A stretch of DNA of 34,375 nt, taken from positions 1-34,375 of the IMG/VR virus record IMGVR_UViG_3300037852_000197. One strand, 5' to 3'. The stretch comes from a virus. The notes under the pieces are model-generated. The model ran no database searches and was not told where the DNA came from. It worked only from the letters and a program-made list of their open reading frames with translations. Every line of letters begins with the position of its first letter. Position 1 is the stretch's first letter. Shown piece by piece: positions 3,246 through 30,715 of the stretch. A program made the position numbers and the translations under genes.

Positions 3246-3407
3246 ATGGATTGCAAAGGATGCGGCTACAAAGACACGCGGATAATAGAATCTCGTGGCG
3301 AAGGTGGTAGTGTAAGAAGGCGTAGACAATGTATGAAATGTGGTTTGAGGGTAACAACTGAGGAACTCATAAAACCACCAAAGCCAAAGAAAGAGATAAA
3401 GACTTGA
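3246..3407 (+). CDS. Stand-alone NrdR-type zinc-ribbon protein
   Basis: 53 residues. It reads [17 protein letters not shown], then [19 protein letters not shown]. This matches position by position the N-terminal zinc ribbon of the bacterial repressor NrdR (two CxxC pairs, D-T-x-x-x-x-S-R, R-R-R-R-x-C, T-T-x-E), which binds NrdR boxes in ribonucleotide reductase promoters. The ATP-cone domain that normally follows is absent; a short lysine/proline tail ends the protein. AAGGA lies five bases before the ATG. The stop overlaps the TTG start of the large terminase (TTGA), so the two are probably translationally coupled. It might be a DNA-binding regulator or a packaging accessory. The fold is confident, the role unknown. 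Confidence 0.75.
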
Positions 3408-5002
3408 GAACTCCCTTTACTCAACTAGATCGTTCAAATAAAGCAGCCATTGGCGTTTGTATGGCATATCTTGATACTTACAACAAACGTACACAACGAC
3501 ATATAACATTTGAAGAATCAAGGACGATTATTCATGCAAGCGAAAAGGACAAAGTTTATCTGCCTTCTCCAACTGGTAAACTTTTTAGTGAGTCTCGCGG
3601 TTTTATTGATCTTGTGTGTGGCCCTTACGGATCGGGAAAGTCAACAATGTGTGCACAACGCATCGTCCGATCCGTCTGTAATATGCCGCCCTGGCACAAT
3701 GGACGAAGAAGAGCAAGATGGGCAATCGTTAGAAACACAAGCGGAGAACTTCAATCAACCACATTACAAACATGGCTGCAATGGTTCTCTGATTTGGGAG
3801 ATATAAAAAAACACCAAAAACCCATTATGACTTACGAGCATTTTTTTAATGATGGATTAGGGACAGTTGAACTTGAACTTATATTTATAGCACTTGATAG
3901 ACCAGAAGATGTAAGAAAAATAAAGTCACTTGAGCTAACTGGTGTTTACCTTAATGAACTATCTGAATTACCACAGAATGTACTTTCTCATTTCAAGGGT
4001 CGTGTGAATGGAAGATATCCCTCTAAGAGTTTTTGCCCAGAACCTCATTGGTCTGGGATTATTGCTGATACTAATCCTCCTGATGAAGACCACTGGATTT
4101 ATAAAGACTTCGAAGAAAACCCTAGTAGCAACTATCGTATTTTTCATCAGCCTAGCGGCTTACTTGAAGATAAAGATGGTTTGGTAAAAGATAAAGATGG
4201 AAATTATATTCAAAATAAAGAAGCTGATAATATAGAAAATCTTTCAAATGATTATTATCCTAAGCTTGCTGAAAAACAATCTGATGGTTTTATAAAGGTC
4301 TATTGCTGTGGTAAATATGGATTGGTTGAGTCGGGCAAAAGAGTATATCCTGAGTATAATGATGATATTCACTCTATTGATCATATTGAAGCCATACAAG
4401 GTGATCCAATTTATCTCGGTTGGGACTTTGGTCTTACTCCTGCTTGTATTGTCATACAAATTACTCCACGTGGTAAAGTTCTAGTCCTTAAAGAATATGT
4501 TGCAGAAGATATCGGCATTAAAACATTTGCAACTAATATTGTGTTACCAAGGATCGCAATTGATTTTGTATATAACAAAATTGGCGGTAGTGAGGGAGAT
4601 CCATCTGGTATGAAGGGCGATGAGATAATGGAGGAACTATCTTGCATTGGAGAACTTACTAATCTTGGAATTAAAACTAATGCAGCAAGTACAAATGATA
4701 TTGATGTTAGAATTAATAGTGTTAGATATTTTCTGAATCTTATGGTTGATGGAAAGCCTGCGTTCTTGTTATCACGTGAGGGATGCCCGATACTTCGTAA
4801 AGGTTTTATGAGCGGATATCATTTTAAACGCATGATGATAGCAGGAGATGATCGCTATCAGGATAAGCCAAACAAAAATCGTTTTTCTCATCCTCATGAT
4901 GCGCTACAATATAATCTCATGCGATTTGCAGCAGATAGAGTAATTGAGCGAACAAGTAAGCCAGAAGTAGATATGTTTAATCCAATTCTTAGGATATTTT
5001 AG
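3404..5002 (+). CDS. Terminase large subunit
   Basis: 532 residues, the packaging motor that translocates DNA into the prohead and cuts it. The ATPase has Walker [10 protein letters not shown] at 73-81, a Walker B-like [10 protein letters not shown] at about 180-189 with the following glutamate, and a coupling motif ADTNPP at 221-226. The nuclease domain has GWDFG with Asp341, and the closing [10 protein letters not shown] near 500. Length and motifs are those of Terminase_3/6 family large subunits. The start is a TTG overlapping the previous stop; a later ATG would still leave Walker A intact, so the first residues are uncertain. Confidence 0.93.
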
Positions 5003-5003
5003 A

Positions 5004-5204
5004 ATGAAGTTATATGAATTATTGATTAGTTCTAAGAAATATTCTTTGTTAAGAAGATCTTCGTGGGAAATAAAAGAATCTTTTTTAATTCTGCCAATAA
5101 ATAGATATCAAAATTTATATATTTTAACTTTAGCAGAAGAGTTGATGATTTATAACCCCACACTTGATGATCTAGTCGCTGATGATTGGGAAATATATAA
5201 ATGA
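5004..5204 (+). CDS. Tad2-like (DUF2829) small protein
   Basis: 66 residues. It has the layout of the DUF2829/Tad2 family: an N-terminal helix and strand (LYELLISSKKYSLLRRSSWE, where the family usually has an R-R-x-x-W segment), and a closing NPTLDDLVADDWEIY, matching the family's D-L-x-A-x-D-W-E end. Tad2 proteins sequester the signalling molecule of Thoeris defence. The central region is short and diverged, so ligand binding cannot be judged. It follows the terminase with one base between stop and ATG, and AGGAT about nine bases upstream. A second, tandem copy of the domain is at 28018-28404 on the other strand. Confidence 0.5.
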   Translation: MKLYELLISSKKYSLLRRSSWEIKESFLILPINRYQNLYILTLAEELMIYNPTLDDLVADDWEIYK

Positions 5205-5802: not shown

Positions 5803-6066
5803 ATGCCTATTCAATCGTTACGCACGAATTTTCCAGGCGATAATTATCAAAGCGCGCGTTTAGTAAGATTACACTCAACTGATGCCCTTGCAACTTGTAC
5901 GGCAGCAGGATATCTAAATAATTACTTAATAATGCAAAGTATTCCACTCTATACCACTGATTTTGTTCATCTTGCCGCTTTAGATGGGACTCAAATTTAT
6001 AAGCCAGCATTCACGAATGGAACGCCTTTTAATGGTGGCAGTGTTCAGCTAGTTGCATTATCTTAA
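5803..6066 (+). CDS. Small virion-region protein
   Basis: 87 residues, MPIQSLRTNFPGDN..., with ARLVRLHSTDALATCTAAGYLNNY and a C-terminal repeat-like beta pattern. Short proteins with this start and a D-x-L-A-T-x-T-A-A-G-Y-L segment are found beside portal and coat genes in podovirus-like genomes. I do not know a proven function; a small structural or decoration role is possible. AAGGAG precedes the ATG by seven bases. A structured leader for the portal gene follows immediately. Confidence 0.65.
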   Translation: MPIQSLRTNFPGDNYQSARLVRLHSTDALATCTAAGYLNNYLIMQSIPLYTTDFVHLAALDGTQIYKPAFTNGTPFNGGSVQLVALS

Positions 6067-6070
6067 TGAA

Positions 6071-6225
6071 TTGCGCTAGCGTGTCATCTCGCGAGATGAT
6101 GACTTTAAAACTCCTTGAGTCCGGTGGACGTCTGGATAAGCCAGACTAGCGCAGAGAATTCCAGGTTCACTCCTCGTGACCGCTAAGCCAAGTTTCCCCA
6201 CACTTGCGGAATAAAAGCTGGGGAT
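6071..6225 (+). ncRNA. Highly structured RNA leader before the portal gene
   Basis: An outer stem TGCGCTAG (6072-6079) with CTAGCGCA (6146-6153) closes a compact junction. Inside are a hairpin built on TCATCTCGCGAGATGA (6084-6099), ACTC-CTT-GAGT (6110-6120) or alternatively GTCC-GGT-GGAC (6119-6129), and GTCTGG-ATAAG-CCAGAC (6130-6146). Further 3' come GGTTCAC/GTGACC (6164-6181), CCGC/GCGG (6180-6209) with nested AAGT/ACTT, and CCCC (6196-6199) that could pair with GGGG (6220-6223). It ends about 15 bases before the AAGGAAGG ribosome site. I matched no known riboswitch; hammerhead core bases are absent. Confidence 0.55.
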
Positions 6226-6246
6226 TTAACTTAACCAAGGAAGGTT

Positions 6247-8448
6247 ATGGAGCGCGACCCTAAAGATGTGAATCACGACCTATCGCAAGAAACATTGAGC
6301 GAGATGGAAGAGAGACGCATAGCAATGATGGATGAAGCTGGCGTTGATGAAAAAGAAGTACTTATTAAAGCTGGCAAGCACTTAAACATTTGGAATAGTT
6401 ATTTCAATGAAAATATCGTCAGAGGTAAAGACGATATGAACTTTTGCTTAAGAGACCAGTGGACTGCTGTTGAGAGATCAGAGTTTACGAGACTTTTTAA
6501 ACCTGCCATGACATTTAATAAACTTTATGATCCAGTAAAGAAGATAGCCGGAGAACAGCGGAAAAACAAACCAGACCTAATAGTAAGATCCCTAACGGGA
6601 AAGGCAACACAGGAACAAATAAACTTACGAGCAGATTTAGTACGTACAATATCATATCAATCTCAGAATGATTTAGTTTACCAAACAGCATTTAAGTCAG
6701 CTCTTATGATGGGTTTCGGTGCATTCCAAATTTGTTTAGATTATGAATCGCCTAAATCATTTAATCAAATCATTCGTTATGAGATGATATCTGATCCTAC
6801 GCGTACTGCATTTGATGCAACAGCATTAAAACCACATAAAGGGGATGGGAACTATTGTGCAAGATACTATGTATTTACTCGGGATGAATTCTTTGCAACC
6901 TATCCTTATGTCACTAATCCCGTATCTTATGTCGATCCATATATGCTTTTGGATTTCCAATGGCAAACCAGAGATACTATTACAGTTTGTGATTACTTTG
7001 TAAAAGAATGGTTTCCTCTTATAATTTATAAACTATCTAATGGAGAGGTGGTAAATGAAAATGAATGGGAAGCGCTGCAGGCGAATTTTAAAATGCAAAG
7101 GGAAATTACCAAAGGATCTGTGGTCGAAAAAATTGTTGAAAATGAAATGCCTAGGATTGTGGGAGAGCGTCAAACGCAAGATTATCGGATAATGCACTAT
7201 AGAATGATTCGTGATCAAATAATTGATTTCTCAGAATGGCCATCTAAAAACTTACCAATTATATTCGTTGATGGAGATTCGTATTATATTGAAGGCCGTC
7301 AATATACTAAGAGTTTCATTCATGAAGCTAGAGATGCTCAAAAATGCGTTAATTATTTCGGAAGTGACATCGTTGCAGACGTTAAAAATAGAAGACGTGA
7401 ACAATGGCTCGGTACCCCTGATAATATTTCAGGATATGAGCAAGACTGGCGAAATCCAGAGTTGCAAATGGGATTGTTACGCGCTAAACCTGATCCTAAA
7501 ACTGGTCAGATGCCTGTCAAGCAGCCCCCCTGGGATCTCTCACCAGCAATTATGCAAAATTTTCAACGTGCTACACAAGATATACGAGAGATTCTCGGTT
7601 TTTCTGAAACAGAAGCGCTTCAAGGTCGTGATATCTCAGGAAAAGCAAGACGTGAACGCAAATTGGAAGGGTCAATGAGTGCTTACGTTTATTTTGATAA
7701 CATGAACCAAGCAGTTGAACAAGGCGGTAGGGTCGTTAATGATTTATTGCCATACATTATTGGTAATGATGAACGTAGAATGGTTATTAGTAAAAACGAT
7801 GGAAAAACCGATCCTGTAACCATAAATGAAAAGCAATCAGATGGTACAATTAAAAATGATTTAGGGATTGGTGATTTTGATGTTGAGATAAATTCAGGGC
7901 CATCATTTGCTGTCCAAAAAGAAGTTGCTCTGGAATTCTTCCAACAAACAATTTCTAATAATCCACAGATATTTAACCTTATTGCAGACCTTTGGGCAGG
8001 GAATCTTGATATTCAACAAATGCAGCAAGTTAAAGACCGCTTAAAGAGTCTTGTACCTCCTGAAATATTAGCAAAAGAAGAAGGTAAACAACCACCGCAA
8101 CCACAACCCAATCCTCAAATGATGATGATGCAGGCAGAATTACAAGGCAAACAAGCAGACATTCAAAATAAAATGGCTGAAACCAAGATCAAAGCTGAGA
8201 AATTACAACTTGAGAGAGAACAAGCGCAACTAGACCATGCAAAACTATTATTAGAAGCGCAAAAAATCCAGACTGATGCACAATTAAATATATTCGATCA
8301 TAAGATTAATTTAGAGACTGCAAAAGCCCGTCATCATATGGACGGTAAAAAGACTGAACTCGATTTCACTCATCAAATAGCCAAGATATTGAGCGATATC
8401 AAGAAAGAAGAGGCTAAGGTTAATAAAGAGAATAAGAAAGAAGAATAA
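6247..8448 (+). CDS. Portal protein (P22 gp1-like)
   Basis: 733 residues, close to the 725 of P22 portal. It forms the dodecameric ring at one vertex through which DNA is packaged and ejected, and docks the terminase and gp4-like protein. The N-terminal half has the P22-portal pattern: a WNSYFNENIVRGKDD region, then DPVKKIAGEQRKNKPDL near 95, and a long central domain with EMISDPTRTAFDATA. The C-terminus from about residue 615 is a glutamine-rich coiled coil, comparable with the P22 barrel helix region. AAGGAAGG sits just upstream of the ATG, after a structured leader. Confidence 0.92.
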   Translation: MERDPKDVNHDLSQETLSEMEERRIAMMDEAGVDEKEVLIKAGKHLNIWNSYFNENIVRGKDDMNFCLRDQWTAVERSEFTRLFKPAMTFNKLYDPVKKIAGEQRKNKPDLIVRSLTGKATQEQINLRADLVRTISYQSQNDLVYQTAFKSALMMGFGAFQICLDYESPKSFNQIIRYEMISDPTRTAFDATALKPHKGDGNYCARYYVFTRDEFFATYPYVTNPVSYVDPYMLLDFQWQTRDTITVCDYFVKEWFPLIIYKLSNGEVVNENEWEALQANFKMQREITKGSVVEKIVENEMPRIVGERQTQDYRIMHYRMIRDQIIDFSEWPSKNLPIIFVDGDSYYIEGRQYTKSFIHEARDAQKCVNYFGSDIVADVKNRRREQWLGTPDNISGYEQDWRNPELQMGLLRAKPDPKTGQMPVKQPPWDLSPAIMQNFQRATQDIREILGFSETEALQGRDISGKARRERKLEGSMSAYVYFDNMNQAVEQGGRVVNDLLPYIIGNDERRMVISKNDGKTDPVTINEKQSDGTIKNDLGIGDFDVEINSGPSFAVQKEVALEFFQQTISNNPQIFNLIADLWAGNLDIQQMQQVKDRLKSLVPPEILAKEEGKQPPQPQPNPQMMMMQAELQGKQADIQNKMAETKIKAEKLQLEREQAQLDHAKLLLEAQKIQTDAQLNIFDHKINLETAKARHHMDGKKTELDFTHQIAKILSDIKKEEAKVNKENKKEE

Positions 8449-9151: not shown

Positions 9152-9187
9152 ACTAGGTGCTAATAGCTACTAGTTTTGTATAATTAT

Positions 9188-9260
9188 TGCTACCTGTCAG
9201 GATCGAACTGACGACCTACGATTTACGAAACCGTTGCTCTACCAACTGAGCTAAAGTAGC
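9188..9260 (-). tRNA. tRNA-Thr (anticodon CGT)
   Basis: 73 bases that fold as a complete cloverleaf on the reverse strand: acceptor GCTACTT with AGGTAGC, D arm GCTC/GAGC around AGTTGGTA, anticodon stem ACGGT/ATCGT with loop TTCGTAA, and T arm GTCAG/CTGAC with TTCGATC. The anticodon CGT reads the threonine codon ACG. Discriminator is A; CCA is not encoded. It is five bases from the second tRNA and shares its terminator. Confidence 0.93.
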
Positions 9261-9265
9261 ATTAA

Positions 9266-9336
9266 TGCCCAAGATAGGAATCGAACCTATGCCTTTTGAT
9301 TACAAATCAACTGCACTACCTTTGTGCTACTCGGGC
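9266..9336 (-). tRNA. tRNA-Thr (anticodon TGT)
   Basis: 71 bases, cloverleaf on the reverse strand: acceptor GCCCGAG with CTTGGGC (including G-T and A-T pairs), D arm GCAC/GTGC, anticodon loop TTTGTAA in a stem with one G-A mismatch at its top, T arm ATAGG/CCTAT with TTCGATT. Anticodon TGT reads ACA. CCA is not encoded. Both phage tRNAs are for threonine. The 5' ten bases overlap the end of the upstream reading frame. Confidence 0.9.
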
Positions 9337-9626: not shown

Positions 9627-9686
9627 CTACGAAACACCATATATAGCGTTGTTATACTGACCACATCAGCCTAAAATTGAGTCTAA

Positions 9687-9746
9687 CGTGTGCAGGATGT
9701 ACACGGGGCGAACGAACCGCCTAATGTTCGGGGCAACAAGAATGCC
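9687..9746 (+). ncRNA. Structured RNA leader before the scaffold gene
   Basis: Three consecutive hairpins: CGTGT/ACACG (9687-9705), CGAAC/GTTCG (9709-9730, alternatively GGCG/CGCC at 9707-9721) and GGCA/TGCC (9732-9746). It is more G- and C-rich than its surroundings and ends 19 bases before the scaffold ATG. As with the portal leader, no known riboswitch is recognised. Confidence 0.45.
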
Positions 9747-9765
9747 GCGTGTGGAGTAGTAGATT

Positions 9766-10545
9766 ATGGATAATCGTCAGGACGACAAGGAAGTATTGAC
9801 AGAAGAAGTTGGAGAAAGTTTAGGGGAACCTGAGGCTGCTATTTCAGAAGTAATAGAAGCTGAGGGCAAGGATAATGACCCTCTGTATGTTCAGAAACGT
9901 TTGAAACAACAGAAGCGGGCACACGATAGGGACATGCGTGAATTGCAGGCAAGGATTAGCCAAATGCAAACCCAATTATCACCCCAACAACCACAATTTC
10001 AAGAAGCCAATAGTCCCTATGATCAAGGAGGAAACTCTGGATCAGTAGAAGACGCTATCCGCAAAGCGGTAAGTTTTGCGCTCCAACAAAGGGATGTCGA
10101 AGAGCGTAAAGCTAGAGATATGCAGTCACAAGCCCACATATCAAGGCAGTATCAAGATTTACAAAAACATCTTGATAGTACAGCCGATAAATATGACGAT
10201 TTTGATGAAGTCGTTAGAGGTGAAACTGTAAATATCACTCCGCACATGCGTGATGCAGCACTAATGCTCCCAAAAAAAGGTGCAGGAAGTGCAGGAGAAG
10301 TCCTCTACAAATTAGGTAAAAATCCTGAAGAATTAATCCGAATCTCAAAACTACCACCAATAGATCAAGCAAGTGAACTCGTAAAACTGAGTCATGCTTT
10401 GGTTTCAGGCGGTGAGCAAAAAGGTTCATCCCCACGTCCACTAGGACAGATCAAAGCAAATCCAGTTACGAATTCCCAAGGTGTCACGGAAAAGACATCG
10501 CCCGCAGCTATTAGGGCACTCATGAAAGCTGGAAAGTTTAAATAA
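9766..10545 (+). CDS. Scaffolding protein
   Basis: 259 residues, acidic at the start and basic at the end (AAIRALMKAGKFK), located directly before the coat gene. Residues about 42-75 are a heptad-like coiled coil (RLKQQKRAHDRDMRELQARI), followed by a glutamine/proline-rich linker. This composition, with a charged helical body and a short basic C-terminal helix that binds coat, is characteristic of P22-type scaffolds, which guide procapsid assembly and leave before DNA packaging. No consensus Shine-Dalgarno is obvious (GGAGTAGTAG lies 5-14 bases upstream); a structured leader precedes it. Sequence alone is variable in this family, so the call rests on composition and order. Confidence 0.82.
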   Translation: MDNRQDDKEVLTEEVGESLGEPEAAISEVIEAEGKDNDPLYVQKRLKQQKRAHDRDMRELQARISQMQTQLSPQQPQFQEANSPYDQGGNSGSVEDAIRKAVSFALQQRDVEERKARDMQSQAHISRQYQDLQKHLDSTADKYDDFDEVVRGETVNITPHMRDAALMLPKKGAGSAGEVLYKLGKNPEELIRISKLPPIDQASELVKLSHALVSGGEQKGSSPRPLGQIKANPVTNSQGVTEKTSPAAIRALMKAGKFK

Positions 10546-10594: not shown

Positions 10595-11806
10595 ATGCCT
10601 AATCAATTTATTACAACGCAATTAGTTAGCAATACTGCACTTGCAATGTTCGCTAACAATAGTCCATTTGTCATGACGGGTTCAAGAATCTATCAGGACG
10701 ATTTTCAAAACTCAGGTTATAAGATTGGCGATACGTTACAAGTTCGTCGCCAAAATAATTTTGTCGTAGGTGATGGTTCAACTGCTGTTCCGCAAGATAT
10801 TATTGAGACTGTTGAAAATATAACTGTTGCACATCAATACCATGCGCTCATTGCCTATACTGTTCAGGATTTAACTTTGCGAATTGAAGATTTCTCTCGC
10901 ATGTTTATTCAACCTGCAATTCAAAATATCATTACGCAAATGGAACGAGATATTTGTTCAGATGCAGAACAAGAACTTTATTTATTTCAAGGGTCAGCAG
11001 GTTCTCCAATAAATTCCTTTAGCTCAGTAGATTTAGCAGGCGCTAAGCTTCTTGAGCAGGGAGTAAACATTGCATCTGATGCGTATCTTGCCATGACAGT
11101 GCGCGACGGATCATCGTTAAAAGCTGCTCTTTTAAATAACTTTACGCCAGTATTTAATGAAGAAATTGTAAGACAATCAGCAATTGGCCATTTATCTTAT
11201 TTTGATATTTTCCAATCTCAAAATATTGTAACCCATGTAGCAGGTGCAGGACCTACTTTACATCCAGGTGATACGTTACTTGTTAATGGAACTGTCGCAT
11301 CAGGAAATACGATTGTATTATCCGGTGCAACTGGTGCTGTTACTAATTACTTTTTACCAGGTGATTTAATTTCAATTGCAGGCGTTCATTCTGTAAATCC
11401 ATTATCTCGTGCCTCAACCGGTCAGAACATGCAATTTGTGATTACTGCTGCTAGCAGTTCATCAGGTGGTGGTGCGCTTACAATCCAAGTAAGCCCAACG
11501 ATTATTAGTGCAACTTCATCTCCTTTGCAAAATGTAGATGTTGCAGTACCGACGGGACAAGCAGTATCAGTTGTTCCTAGTTACCATGTTAATGTTGCCT
11601 ATCCATCTCGTGCATTAGATATCGTTTGTCCGCCTCTTTATAAATTACAAGTTCCATATGCAAGTGTTGCCGTTGATCCTGAAACGGGATTATCACTTGC
11701 TGTAACACAAACTGGTGACATTTTAGGATATCAAAACTTAATGCGGCTCGATATTTTATGCGGGTTTAAATGGCATCCTCAATATGCAGTTAAATTATTG
11801 TCTTAA
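10595..11806 (+). CDS. Major coat protein (P22 gp5-like)
   Basis: 403 residues (P22 gp5 has 430). It has the P22-coat family features: an N-terminal arm ending in SRIYQDDFQNSGYKIGDTLQVRR, a spine helix region (FIQPAIQNIITQMERDIC near 110) and a late beta-rich domain. Residues about 215-330 are a glycine/serine/threonine-rich insertion, in the position of accessory I-type domains of this family, ending before NVAYPSRALDIV. It forms the icosahedral shell. An AAGGATG site lies upstream and the small gene at 11818 follows after eleven bases. Confidence 0.92.
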   Translation: MPNQFITTQLVSNTALAMFANNSPFVMTGSRIYQDDFQNSGYKIGDTLQVRRQNNFVVGDGSTAVPQDIIETVENITVAHQYHALIAYTVQDLTLRIEDFSRMFIQPAIQNIITQMERDICSDAEQELYLFQGSAGSPINSFSSVDLAGAKLLEQGVNIASDAYLAMTVRDGSSLKAALLNNFTPVFNEEIVRQSAIGHLSYFDIFQSQNIVTHVAGAGPTLHPGDTLLVNGTVASGNTIVLSGATGAVTNYFLPGDLISIAGVHSVNPLSRASTGQNMQFVITAASSSSGGGALTIQVSPTIISATSSPLQNVDVAVPTGQAVSVVPSYHVNVAYPSRALDIVCPPLYKLQVPYASVAVDPETGLSLAVTQTGDILGYQNLMRLDILCGFKWHPQYAVKLLS

Positions 11807-28017: not shown

Positions 28018-28404
28018 TTATTTTATTGTCTCCCAATCAAGCGCACATAGGCATTTTAAAGACGGCATAAAATCAAATTGTACAGCTTTACATATTGCGA
28101 TCTGTTCTTGATCAACAAATACAAATTGATCTAATTTATTTTCAATCCAGTCTTTATGCATGATATGCTTTTTTATTTTAAGTGCTTCTAATGCTTCTAT
28201 AAAACTTAATTCTTTCCCATCACCATCAACTATCACCCATCCATCACTTATAAGCACATTAGCATCTTCATAAAAATTAGTATATTCACCTTTATAAGTT
28301 TTAATTTTTCCATCAATCTTACGAATGTGCATGAAGTATTCCCATGATTTCCTACGTATTTTTTTTCCTTCCTGCAATTCCTTATGTGCTTTCTCGAAAT
28401 TCAT
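28018..28404 (-). CDS. Tandem Tad2-like (DUF2829) protein
   Basis: 128 residues in two halves of the same plan. Half one (1-59): MNFEKAHKELQEGKKIRRKSW ... LISDGWVIV. Half two (66-128): LSFIEALEALKIKKHIMHKDW ... KCLCALDWETI. Each has the opening F-x-x-A-x-x-x-L-x-x-x-K-x-(I/V)-x-(R/H)-x-x-W and closing D/G-W of the Tad2/DUF2829 family, which sequesters the Thoeris signal. The published family is mostly single-domain, so a fused pair is notable. It has AAGGA upstream in a repeated leader. Alternatively it is a DUF2829 relative with another ligand. Confidence 0.55.
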   Translation of the reverse strand: MNFEKAHKELQEGKKIRRKSWEYFMHIRKIDGKIKTYKGEYTNFYEDANVLISDGWVIVDGDGKELSFIEALEALKIKKHIMHKDWIENKLDQFVFVDQEQIAICKAVQFDFMPSLKCLCALDWETIK

Positions 28405-28530: not shown

Positions 28531-29199
28531 TTACTTATCAATCTTACTCGCAAGTTCTATTGTCTTTTGCATATATTGTCTATCAAATACCATATTTGCA
28601 CACCGTAAGTTTTTCCATTCGGTATCTGTAAACCATTCAACTGCATAAATGAACCCTGTTTTTTTACTGCCATCAATACTAGTAGCAGTGGGCTTACCAT
28701 TCACATAATATTTTACAGATTCCTCACTTAACTCTGTAGTAGTATTTAATACATATGAATATGAACATGTACCAATATCTTTATAATCAAAAAATTCAAT
28801 TATTCCATTCCATCCTTTATTTTTAATATAAGAATTAGAAGCGGCATAACCTATCACATCTTTTTCTGTTATAAAATTTAGTGGCTTATAATTGAAAGAT
28901 AATTTTATCTGGTCTGGATTTGATTTTAAATGTGTATCATGAGGATTAGGATTATATTTAAAATTTCTGAGTTCTTTTTTTGAATTATTCCTTAAATTTA
29001 ATAAAAATTTTGCATATTTATTTTCATTTTCATAAAATCCTTTGCGTTCAATATCATTTGATATGTCAATCATTTCTTTTTTAAGATCTTCTGGGAAATC
29101 CATATCTTTAAATGGTTTTATTTTAACACCATGATTATCTCCACCATAAATTGAAAATGGCACCAATAGTAAACTTGCAACTAAATATTTAATTTTCAT
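28531..29199 (-). CDS. Secreted protein of unknown function
   Basis: 222 residues from the ATG at 29199, which has AAGGAG six bases upstream; a longer frame from 29238 would mask the signal peptide. It starts with a typical signal peptide (MKIKYLVASLLLVPFSIYGG). The mature part is hydrophilic and beta-rich, with GWNGIIEFFDYKDIGTCSYS and two cysteines that could form a disulfide. No enzyme motif was seen. It overlaps the preceding secreted gene by eleven bases. A periplasmic or surface role, for example exclusion of other phages, is possible. Confidence 0.6.
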   Translation of the reverse strand: MKIKYLVASLLLVPFSIYGGDNHGVKIKPFKDMDFPEDLKKEMIDISNDIERKGFYENENKYAKFLLNLRNNSKKELRNFKYNPNPHDTHLKSNPDQIKLSFNYKPLNFITEKDVIGYAASNSYIKNKGWNGIIEFFDYKDIGTCSYSYVLNTTTELSEESVKYYVNGKPTATSIDGSKKTGFIYAVEWFTDTEWKNLRCANMVFDRQYMQKTIELASKIDK

Positions 29200-29593
29200 T
29201 ATCTTCTCCTTTAATGCTATAGTCCCACCAGCCGTCATATTGACTACAATCTGTTACATATTCCTCTTGCGCTAAAGTTTTTTTACCGTATTTCTTTTCC
29301 ATCAACCAATGCCTCCCTAAGACACCATATGTATACATATCGTCCGGAAATGCTTCTCCCCAATGCGAGACATTATGTTTTTTAGCTATTTTCCACTCAC
29401 TACCATCCACACATGTTATAGATTTTATTAAATCATTATAATGACGAGATTCAATATACATTCCCCATTCTGCACTCAAATCCCATGACACAGTTTCGTT
29501 TACACCACAATTTGCTCTTGACCCATGTGTTAAATTATTCACACCAGCATAAACATTATTTGATAATAACAAAATTATTAGTATTTTTTTCAT
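29189..29593 (-). CDS. Secreted cysteine-containing protein
   Basis: 134 residues with a signal peptide (MKKILIILLLSNNVYA, cut after A16). The mature protein is tryptophan- and tyrosine-rich with cysteines at about 30, 61 and 115 (NCGVNET, ITCVDGSEW, VTDCSQYDGWW). AAGGA precedes the ATG in the repeated leader. It overlaps the next secreted gene. I recognise no family. The pair looks like an accessory cassette. Confidence 0.6.
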   Translation of the reverse strand: MKKILIILLLSNNVYAGVNNLTHGSRANCGVNETVSWDLSAEWGMYIESRHYNDLIKSITCVDGSEWKIAKKHNVSHWGEAFPDDMYTYGVLGRHWLMEKKYGKKTLAQEEYVTDCSQYDGWWDYSIKGEDNEN

Positions 29594-29594
29594 A

Positions 29595-29684
29595 ATAAAA
29601 ATCCTTACTTTACTTTACTTAACACAACAACTCAATACAGGACAATACATAACCCAACATCACAATATAATTAAAAATCCTTAT
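29595..29684 (-). repeat. Reverse-strand leader cassette, copy 2
   Basis: It contains GTTAAGTAAAGTAAAGTAAGG directly before the ATG at 29593, and about 60 bases upstream a second AAGGATTTTTAAT element. The proximal 30 bases match copy 3 (29871-29901) nearly base for base. Cytosine is very rare on the sense strand between them. Confidence 0.55.
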
Positions 29685-29728
29685 TTGGATAGGATCTATA
29701 CTTGGTAAACCATCGGGCTTATCAAGTA

Positions 29729-29872
29729 TCATTTTGATTTTCTTGCAACAGGTACATTTTTGTAAGGGCCTCGCGTTGGCTTATAGCCTACAATCCTACC
29801 TACCGATCGATCAATTTTTACATAGCGATCTGTTTTAGGATTCTTCACTTGCACAACTTCTTGTATTCTCAT
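29729..29872 (-). CDS. Small basic protein
   Basis: 47 residues: MRIQEVVQVKNPKTDRYVKI, then DRSVGRIVGYKPTRGPYKNV and a basic end. The frame runs from an ATG preceded by TAAGGATTTTTA. It resembles the very short basic proteins common in phages, which often carry a K-x-x-G-x-Y-(K/V)-x-I-D segment; no role is known. It is a single-gene cassette with its own copy of the repeated leader. Confidence 0.55.
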   Translation of the reverse strand: MRIQEVVQVKNPKTDRYVKIDRSVGRIVGYKPTRGPYKNVPVARKSK

Positions 29873-29950
29873 TAAAAATCCTTACCTTACTTTACTTAAC
29901 ACCACAAATCTATACATCACACTGCGCCACTGCACTAAATGACAAGACAT
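29871..29950 (-). repeat. Reverse-strand leader cassette, copy 3
   Basis: GTTAAGTAAAGTAAGGTAAGG and ATTTTTAATG lie directly before the gene at 29872, nearly identical to copy 2. Upstream the sense strand is again G/T/A-rich with few C (GTGCAGTGGCGCAGTGTG). Confidence 0.5.
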
Positions 29951-29968
29951 CATTGTACAACCTATCTA

Positions 29969-30026
29969 TGCCAAGTCTTGCAAGGAGGTCTCGCGCGCCT
30001 GACAGTACGCAGGCTCAGACTTGGCA
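29969..30026. repeat. Ten-base-pair inverted repeat with inner hairpin
   Basis: TGCCAAGTCT (29969-29978) pairs with AGACTTGGCA (30017-30026). Inside, GCCTG (29997-30001) pairs with CAGGC (30010-30014). The interior is G- and C-rich, unlike the surroundings. On the reverse strand it overlaps the stop of the 59-residue membrane protein; no T run follows. Confidence 0.5.
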
Positions 30027-30194
30027 AAGGCATTCTATACATGATTTACATTTAAATAAAGAACCAAATTTATTTACTACATATATAAATATATCTTGTG
30101 GTATATCTATCATCATCCATCCGAAAAACAGTGCCAAACAAATAAAAATCATGATCAACTGCATACAGACTATAGTTATTATTAAATCTTTCAT
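30015..30194 (-). CDS. Small membrane protein with cysteine-rich tail
   Basis: 59 residues: MKDLIITIVCMQLIMIFICL and on through a strongly hydrophobic span (about 3-26), ending in a cysteine cluster (FKCKSCIECLCQV, Cys49, 52, 55, 57). The ATG overlaps the stop of the Gp157-like gene (ATGA), so it is translationally coupled. The CxxC...CxC tail might bind metal or be oxidised. Unknown family. Confidence 0.55.
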   Translation of the reverse strand: MKDLIITIVCMQLIMIFICLALFFGWMMIDIPQDIFIYVVNKFGSLFKCKSCIECLCQV

Positions 30195-30715
30195 AACTTA
30201 TCCAAGCTAATTTCAATCTTAGTTTTCTGTTCAACTTTAGCACCTGGAACTTGTTTTCCTGTGTTTAATACTTCTTCTTTTATAGCAATCTTGTCGGCCT
30301 TTTTAACAATATGTTTTACTTCTCTTACACTCATAAACCTACTTGGCAATTGTGTCTCATCATATATCTCTGTGCTATATGGGTTCTTTTTAATCCTAAT
30401 CGTAAAATATGGACAAGATACTTCATCTATTTTGCTACGCTCCATATTAAATTTTAAATACTCTTTCCATTTATCTATTTCCTTATCGTATGCTGCTTCC
30501 CTTCTTATAATTTCTTGCTTTAAATAATCAATTTCCCTTTTCTCTGCCTCTCTTTTTTTTATCCAATGCGCAACTGATATACATTTACTCTCCGTGGTTG
30601 GCATCAGTTCATTTATTTTAATTTCAATGTCTTCATTGACTTCCCCTGTTTCTTCATCATAGAGTTGGCTTAATAATGCTTGGTGTTCTGTTGCTAATTT
30701 ATATAGACTAATCAT
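30191..30715 (-). CDS. Siphovirus Gp157-like protein
   Basis: 174 residues from the ATG at 30715, with AGGGGAA seven bases upstream. The N-terminus (MISLYKLATEHQALLSQL), followed by EINELMPTTESKC-type sequence and a long coiled coil (KREAEKREIDYLKQEIIRRE), and then FTIRIKKNPYSTEIYDETQLPSRFM, follows Gp157 (PF05565), described in Streptococcus thermophilus phages. Such proteins lie next to single-strand annealing proteins in phage recombination operons. It overlaps both neighbours by a few bases. Confidence 0.8.
   Translation of the reverse strand: MISLYKLATEHQALLSQLYDEETGEVNEDIEIKINELMPTTESKCISVAHWIKKREAEKREIDYLKQEIIRREAAYDKEIDKWKEYLKFNMERSKIDEVSCPYFTIRIKKNPYSTEIYDETQLPSRFMSVREVKHIVKKADKIAIKEEVLNTGKQVPGAKVEQKTKIEISLDKL

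Follow-up and report, generated by a model that had tools for sequence, protein, structure and literature searches.

The structure at positions 6071-6225 of the window (the whole 34,375-nucleotide stretch of virus DNA analysed here) is real, but it belongs to two separate RNAs, divided near position 6155. Comparative evidence establishes the second of them, TTCC-PK (part 2, 6158-6224, plus strand), as a conserved, noncoding and compactly folded phage RNA, and supports it well as a new pseudoknotted RNA family with no counterpart in Rfam 15. The first (part 1, 6072-6153, plus strand) is very probably also a conserved, noncoding and compactly folded phage RNA. Part 2 fills an exchangeable slot between an 87-aa gene and the hairpin that holds the portal Shine-Dalgarno site, without being tied to the portal gene.

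The 34-kb window is a virus record in which the gene order is of the P22 type: terminase (3404-5002), portal (6247-8448, plus strand), scaffold (9766-10545) and coat (10595-11806). The gene downstream of the structure had been called a portal gene in the initial annotation, and was confirmed as P22-type by Pfam (PF16510, E 1.4e-103) and PHROG (phrog_156, E 1.1e-80); the best of its named relatives is below 30% identity. Upstream lies the 87-aa gene (5803-6066, plus strand), functionally unassigned and with no match in Pfam, PHROG or NCBIfam, whose stop codon forms the left edge of the slot. A noncoding stretch of 180 nt separates this stop codon from the portal start. The phage carrying both RNAs is known from metagenomes only. 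Elsewhere in the window, Tad2-like (Thoeris anti-defence) proteins were recognised by Pfam at 5004-5204 and 28018-28404 (minus strand), and a tRNA-Thr pair (CGT, TGT) lies between portal and scaffold, at 9187-9336 on the minus strand.

One compact RNA, with far more structure than expected, had initially been described in front of the portal. Its elements are all present: the closing stem of eight pairs (6072-6079 with 6146-6153), the three internal hairpins, found both in the sequence and in the folds, and the CCCC/GGGG pairing (6196-6199 with 6220-6223), for which covariation in relatives backs a pseudoknot. The single unit did not stand, as these elements are shared out between part 1 and part 2. 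GC content of the 155 nt is 51.6%, compared to 35.3% for the window (99.3rd percentile among 155-nt windows), and part 1 alone folded better than its shuffles (z = -3.1 to -3.2, 1 of 200 equally good), but for the whole 155 nt z was only -1.36, and 19 of 200 shuffles folded equally well. For part 2 by itself z was about 0.2, since its pseudoknot lies beyond what ordinary folding can represent. Taken by itself, folding energy is weak evidence for this region.

TTCC-PK is defined by a helix P1 (TTCC/GGAA) and two hairpins, P2 and P3, the loop of P3 pairing with the strand that follows GGAATA. The window copy shows three helices and an H-type pseudoknot, all on the plus strand: P1 at 6159-6162 with 6208-6211, P2 at 6164-6170 with 6176-6181 (loop TCCTC), P3 at 6189-6193 with 6202-6206, and the pseudoknot at 6195-6200 with 6219-6224, the CCCC/GGGG pairing forming its core. 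A covariance model, R1, was seeded with loci L009, L010 and L020 only, without the window and without the pseudoknot. It found 12 further members at E < 0.1, and gave the window a score of 17.7 bits (E 0.07). In the 15-row alignment that it produced, 95.2% of the cells were paired when the structure included the pseudoknot, and 15 of the 21 pairs had changed on both sides. These values were matched by none of 500 shuffles, and sliding the partners by 1 to 3 columns brought the pairing down to 37-51%. P1 to P3 were built into the model that made the alignment and are therefore favoured; the pseudoknot was absent from that model, and 4 of its 6 pairs had nevertheless changed on both sides. P1 was nearly constant in this alignment, so that its support comes from the topology and from L016 (TCCC/GGGA), not from pair counts.

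A second model, with the window inside its seed (6156-6224, 45.9 bits), detected four copies from outside the seed (L065, the second L017 copy, L016 and L021, E 1e-10 to 5e-3), all of which share the genomic setting. When the copies were aligned by hand, P2, P3 and the pseudoknot were each represented by 11 to 15 different strand pairs, an illustration rather than a proof since the helices were chosen by eye. The invariant bases are those of P1, a CC and GGAATA. The search for covariation in related phages, which had been proposed as a check, thus gave a strong result for part 2, over about 18 phages. Together with the covariance-model matches it supports the suggestion that a functional RNA with a pseudoknotted structure lies here, and we regard the covariation as decisive for the predicted fold.

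Within the closing stem, part 1 holds a hairpin with loop CGCG (6084-6089 with 6094-6099), a CTCC stretch (6111-6114), a small hairpin (6119-6122 with 6126-6129) and a terminal hairpin with loop ATAAG (6131-6135 with 6141-6145), all on the plus strand. A strict, exact-pattern search of viral contigs found part 1 only in L004, besides a contig matching the window. Applied to these two sequences, RNAalifold kept both the closing stem and the terminal hairpin; two pairs showed compensatory changes on both sides, and a further one had passed from G-C to G-U. The best fold of L004 by itself departs from that of the window, and the inner hairpins are less sure. Judged by eye, L136, with an eight-pair stem followed by CG and a hairpin, is a possible third member, and a distant one.

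Neither RNA corresponded to a known family. No model among the 4227 families of Rfam 15 reached its gathering threshold at 6071-6225, the best score being 16.9 bits for MDR-NUDIX (cut-off 54.9), and relaxed thresholds gave no family for part 1 or part 2 either. The known ribozyme models of Rfam did not match this region, and neither ARAGORN nor Rfam called a tRNA or tmRNA at the window slot. Annotated phage records gave no DNA match, a portal scan of genome contigs for bacterial homologues gave none, and no such RNA near phage portal genes was found in the literature. A pattern scan for TTCC-PK matched at least 119 stretches of genome contigs; among the matches listed, none of the 20 with TTCC upstream resembled the full structure by eye. 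An intrinsic terminator was considered and rejected, no GC-rich stem with a T run being found at the slot, and no sigma-70-type promoter or terminator was detected there beyond chance. Readthrough of the stop codon into the pseudoknot was also considered: the frames of L005 and L013 were read by eye, the L013 frame meeting a stop about ten codons on, and a conserved readthrough extension appears unlikely.

Portal leaders were compared over two overlapping sets of loci (71, then 80; L-numbers designate loci), obtained by scanning IMG/VR with portal proteins. These leaders hold very different RNAs, among which TTCC-PK recurs, with about 19 copies in 18 phages: the window, L002, L005, L008, L009, L010, L012, L013, L016, L017 (two in tandem), L020, L021, L023, L052 (the same contig as L101), L062, L063, L065 and L116. 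When 30 records were searched, TTCC-PK was found in 11, one copy each; one additional weak match (E 0.35) is probably due to chance. In 12 of 18 cases TTCC directly follows the 87-aa stop codon, with a gap of 0 to 1, and in L020 and L023 the gap is 5 to 6.

One role considered for such an RNA is that of a cis-regulatory portal leader, a riboswitch or a protein operator. The window copy is indeed placed about 22 nt before the portal ORF, with the Shine-Dalgarno hairpin next to it. Other copies argue against this role. In L008 and L052 the RNA lies ahead of the 87-aa gene and begins 632 and 737 nt before the portal, and in L116 (record G024) TTCC-PK (9226-9293, plus strand) is about 19 kb away from the P22-type portal gene (28724-30556, minus strand). 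It precedes there a small ORF, that is, it lies in the leader of a small gene, and the gene upstream of the portal overlaps the portal gene, which leaves no RNA slot. Moreover, conservation of the portal Shine-Dalgarno hairpin does not depend on whether TTCC-PK is present. We consider a portal leader quite improbable, and the link to the portal put forward in the initial annotation was not supported: TTCC-PK was not found in 10 of the 27 rows of the same portal clade, most of which carry other RNAs at that place, and it is upstream of another gene in two phages.

The portal tree told the same. TTCC-PK occurs in 17 of the 27 rows of one well-supported clade, its distribution implies 7 changes, of which well-supported branches force at least 5, and the row nearest to the window, L059, carries a different RNA. 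This bears on packaging RNA as well. The packaging RNA of phi29 is a compact multi-helix phage RNA found in a portal context, and the analogy drawn initially rested on a compact multi-helix RNA close to a portal gene. An RNA of the phi29 type is required by the motor and hence kept with terminase and portal; here terminase and portal are conserved without TTCC-PK. TTCC-PK thus differs from the phi29 RNA in not being universal in the clade, in having other locations and in being replaced by unrelated RNAs. Because close relatives carry a tRNA-like or other RNA at the exact spot, a packaging role is hardly credible, and the analogy was dropped. It is very likely that TTCC-PK is a functional RNA that is not specific to the portal; a role as riboregulator, RNA-binding site or processing site is possible.

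What is exchanged at this place was visible from pairs of related leaders (L059/L065, L019/L065, L004/L063 and L027/L063), which align up to the stop codon of the 87-aa gene and then diverge. The slot is occupied by tRNAs called by ARAGORN in L060 and L037, by a tRNA above the Rfam cut-off in L163, and by a tRNA-like RNA with an insert in L019. The leaders of L018 and L150 share another long, structured-looking RNA, 83% identical over 77 nt (including ACCCATGAAGAAGTCT) and without a match in Rfam. L037, L163 and L150 have no 87-aa gene at the slot. By eye, a large RNA was also noticed in the portal leaders of L007, L009, L010, L012, L015 and L051; it has a tRNA-like closing stem and a T-arm-like hairpin (GAAGCTCAGAAAGA ... 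GGTGCAAATCC), and received no call from Rfam or ARAGORN. L019 also carries the tRNA-Thr genes (CGT, TGT) seen in the window. Other Rfam RNAs found in these loci were int-alpA RNA (RF02996), on the minus strand of L025 (3481-3546) and L032 (7746-7811), and abiF RNA (RF03085, 46.8 bits), directly behind the portal gene of L027 (7272-7308), with no abiF gene seen beside it.

The succession of unrelated compact folds in one slot could be that of an intercistronic mRNA element, where the fold blocks 3'-exonucleases or marks a cut, so that the message of the 87-aa gene lasts longer or is more abundant than the portal message. This could be achieved by any stable fold, and pseudoknots, tRNAs (as in L163) and tRNA-like RNAs would therefore all be found there; the frequent contact of TTCC with the 87-aa stop codon is in line with this proposal. 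For such a purpose, however, a plain hairpin would suffice, whereas the covariation and the invariant bases indicate a specific fold, the motif of the P2 loop is conserved, and the L116 copy is in the leader of a small gene. We take this explanation as possible, but rather doubtful.

Alternatively, the terminase-portal interval may be an accessory site where small RNAs (tRNAs, decoys or mimics) directed against host defences are swapped beside Tad2-like genes. Both phage tRNAs (PMC11555353) and RNA anti-CRISPRs (PMC10651486) are known to counteract host defences. Tad2-like genes are found in this interval in the window (PF11195) and just before the portal in L025, L037 and L045, and the tRNAs or tRNA-like RNAs of L163, L060, L037 and L019, as well as the abiF RNA of L027, would fit. 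Phage tRNAs are also small stable RNAs, and occupy the same slot in some relatives, but TTCC-PK and part 1 differ from them in receiving no call from ARAGORN or Rfam. The Racr RNA anti-CRISPRs (PMC10651486) are likewise solitary structured phage RNAs, possibly trans-acting, near accessory genes; unlike them, TTCC-PK has no known cas partner. Against a counter-defence cargo, no bacterial TTCC-PK locus was present among the matches listed from genome contigs, and no Rfam family resembles TTCC-PK. We judge it unlikely. The explanation we retain as the best, with some reserve and at less than even confidence, is an exchangeable phage noncoding RNA that would show a UCC loop to the AGGA loops of late genes.

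These AGGA loops belong to Shine-Dalgarno hairpins. In the window, the portal site lies in the six-base loop of TAACC[AAGGAA]GGTTA (6232-6247, plus strand). Such a hairpin, with a stem of at least 4 pairs, was found in 62 of 79 portal leaders, with 42 different stems, compared to 19% of control sites; loops of 5 to 7 nt were scanned and the best stem taken, so that some of these matches are an upstream hairpin and not the true site. On the plus strand of the window, 5 of the 10 genes with such a site had a hexaloop stem of at least 4 pairs, when 0.4 was expected from shuffled flanks; none of the 6 such genes of the minus strand had one. AAGGAW in a six-base hairpin loop was seen at the starts 878, 6247, 10595, 15375 and 21615, mainly of late genes.

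A second conserved RNA leader was observed ahead of the scaffold gene, at 9684-9768 of the window, with relatives in L009, L010, L020, L021, L026, L027, L030, L061 and L153. It consists of a first hairpin with an invariant AGGA loop, followed by a probable pseudoknot, which passes from CGAAC/GTTCG to CGAAG/CTTCG in some relatives, and by a GGCA/TGCC stem. In this leader 98.4% of the cells were paired, and 6 of the 7 pairs of the first hairpin had changed on both sides. It had no match in Rfam, a search of the whole window returning only tRNAs, and is a candidate translational operator.

The CsrA/RsmA consensus, RUACARGGAUGU, lies mostly in a six-base hairpin loop (PMC7652899). The phage Shine-Dalgarno hairpins, of the form C[AAGGAU]G, resemble it, a likeness that concerns the hairpin next to TTCC-PK and not TTCC-PK itself. 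No CsrA was found among 30 of these phage records.

Turning to the loop of P2, YCC was present in 14 of 18 different loops, compared to 7.9 after shuffling within loops (p about 5e-5) and 1.2 predicted from the composition of the genome; four loops lack it. RNAIII of Staphylococcus is an antisense RNA that pairs with Shine-Dalgarno sites through UCC(C) loops. TTCC-PK has the conserved UCC in a hairpin loop expected of that antisense type, and this loop could likewise pair with the GGA of a ribosome site. It differs from RNAIII in being phage-encoded and built on a pseudoknot scaffold, and its target pairing is putative. Given the conserved YCC loop and the potential for UCC/AGGA pairing, we propose an anti-Shine-Dalgarno loop that would tune late translation. 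The RNA would function as such, either as part of the late transcript or after being cleaved from it. P1 and the pseudoknot would form a stable scaffold presenting the UCC loop of P2, which would pair with AGGA in the Shine-Dalgarno hairpin loops of several late genes and in the hairpin loop of the scaffold leader. Translation of late genes would thereby be tuned, the RNA acting in cis for the portal message and in trans for the others.

The P2 loops were no better complementary to the portal Shine-Dalgarno loop of their own phage than to those of other phages (p 0.95), a weak test because both sides are nearly invariant. No obvious common UCC loop was seen in the tRNA-like occupants of the slot. 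On balance we hold the UCC-loop mechanism to be possible but somewhat unlikely. Less probable still is the stronger form of the proposal, in which these podophages would maintain a dedicated slot of the late operon and exchange unrelated structured RNAs there like accessory genes, TTCC-PK acting as a trans antisense RNA on a regulon of AGGA loops by loop-loop pairing.

These results add a new RNA family, well supported and with covariation behind its pseudoknot, from a group of viruses whose nearest isolated relatives are distant. They also point to a position in the genome where phages exchange whole RNAs and not proteins. If these RNAs act in trans, as regulators of late translation or as anti-defence decoys, the slot would readily supply new phage RNA functions for study.
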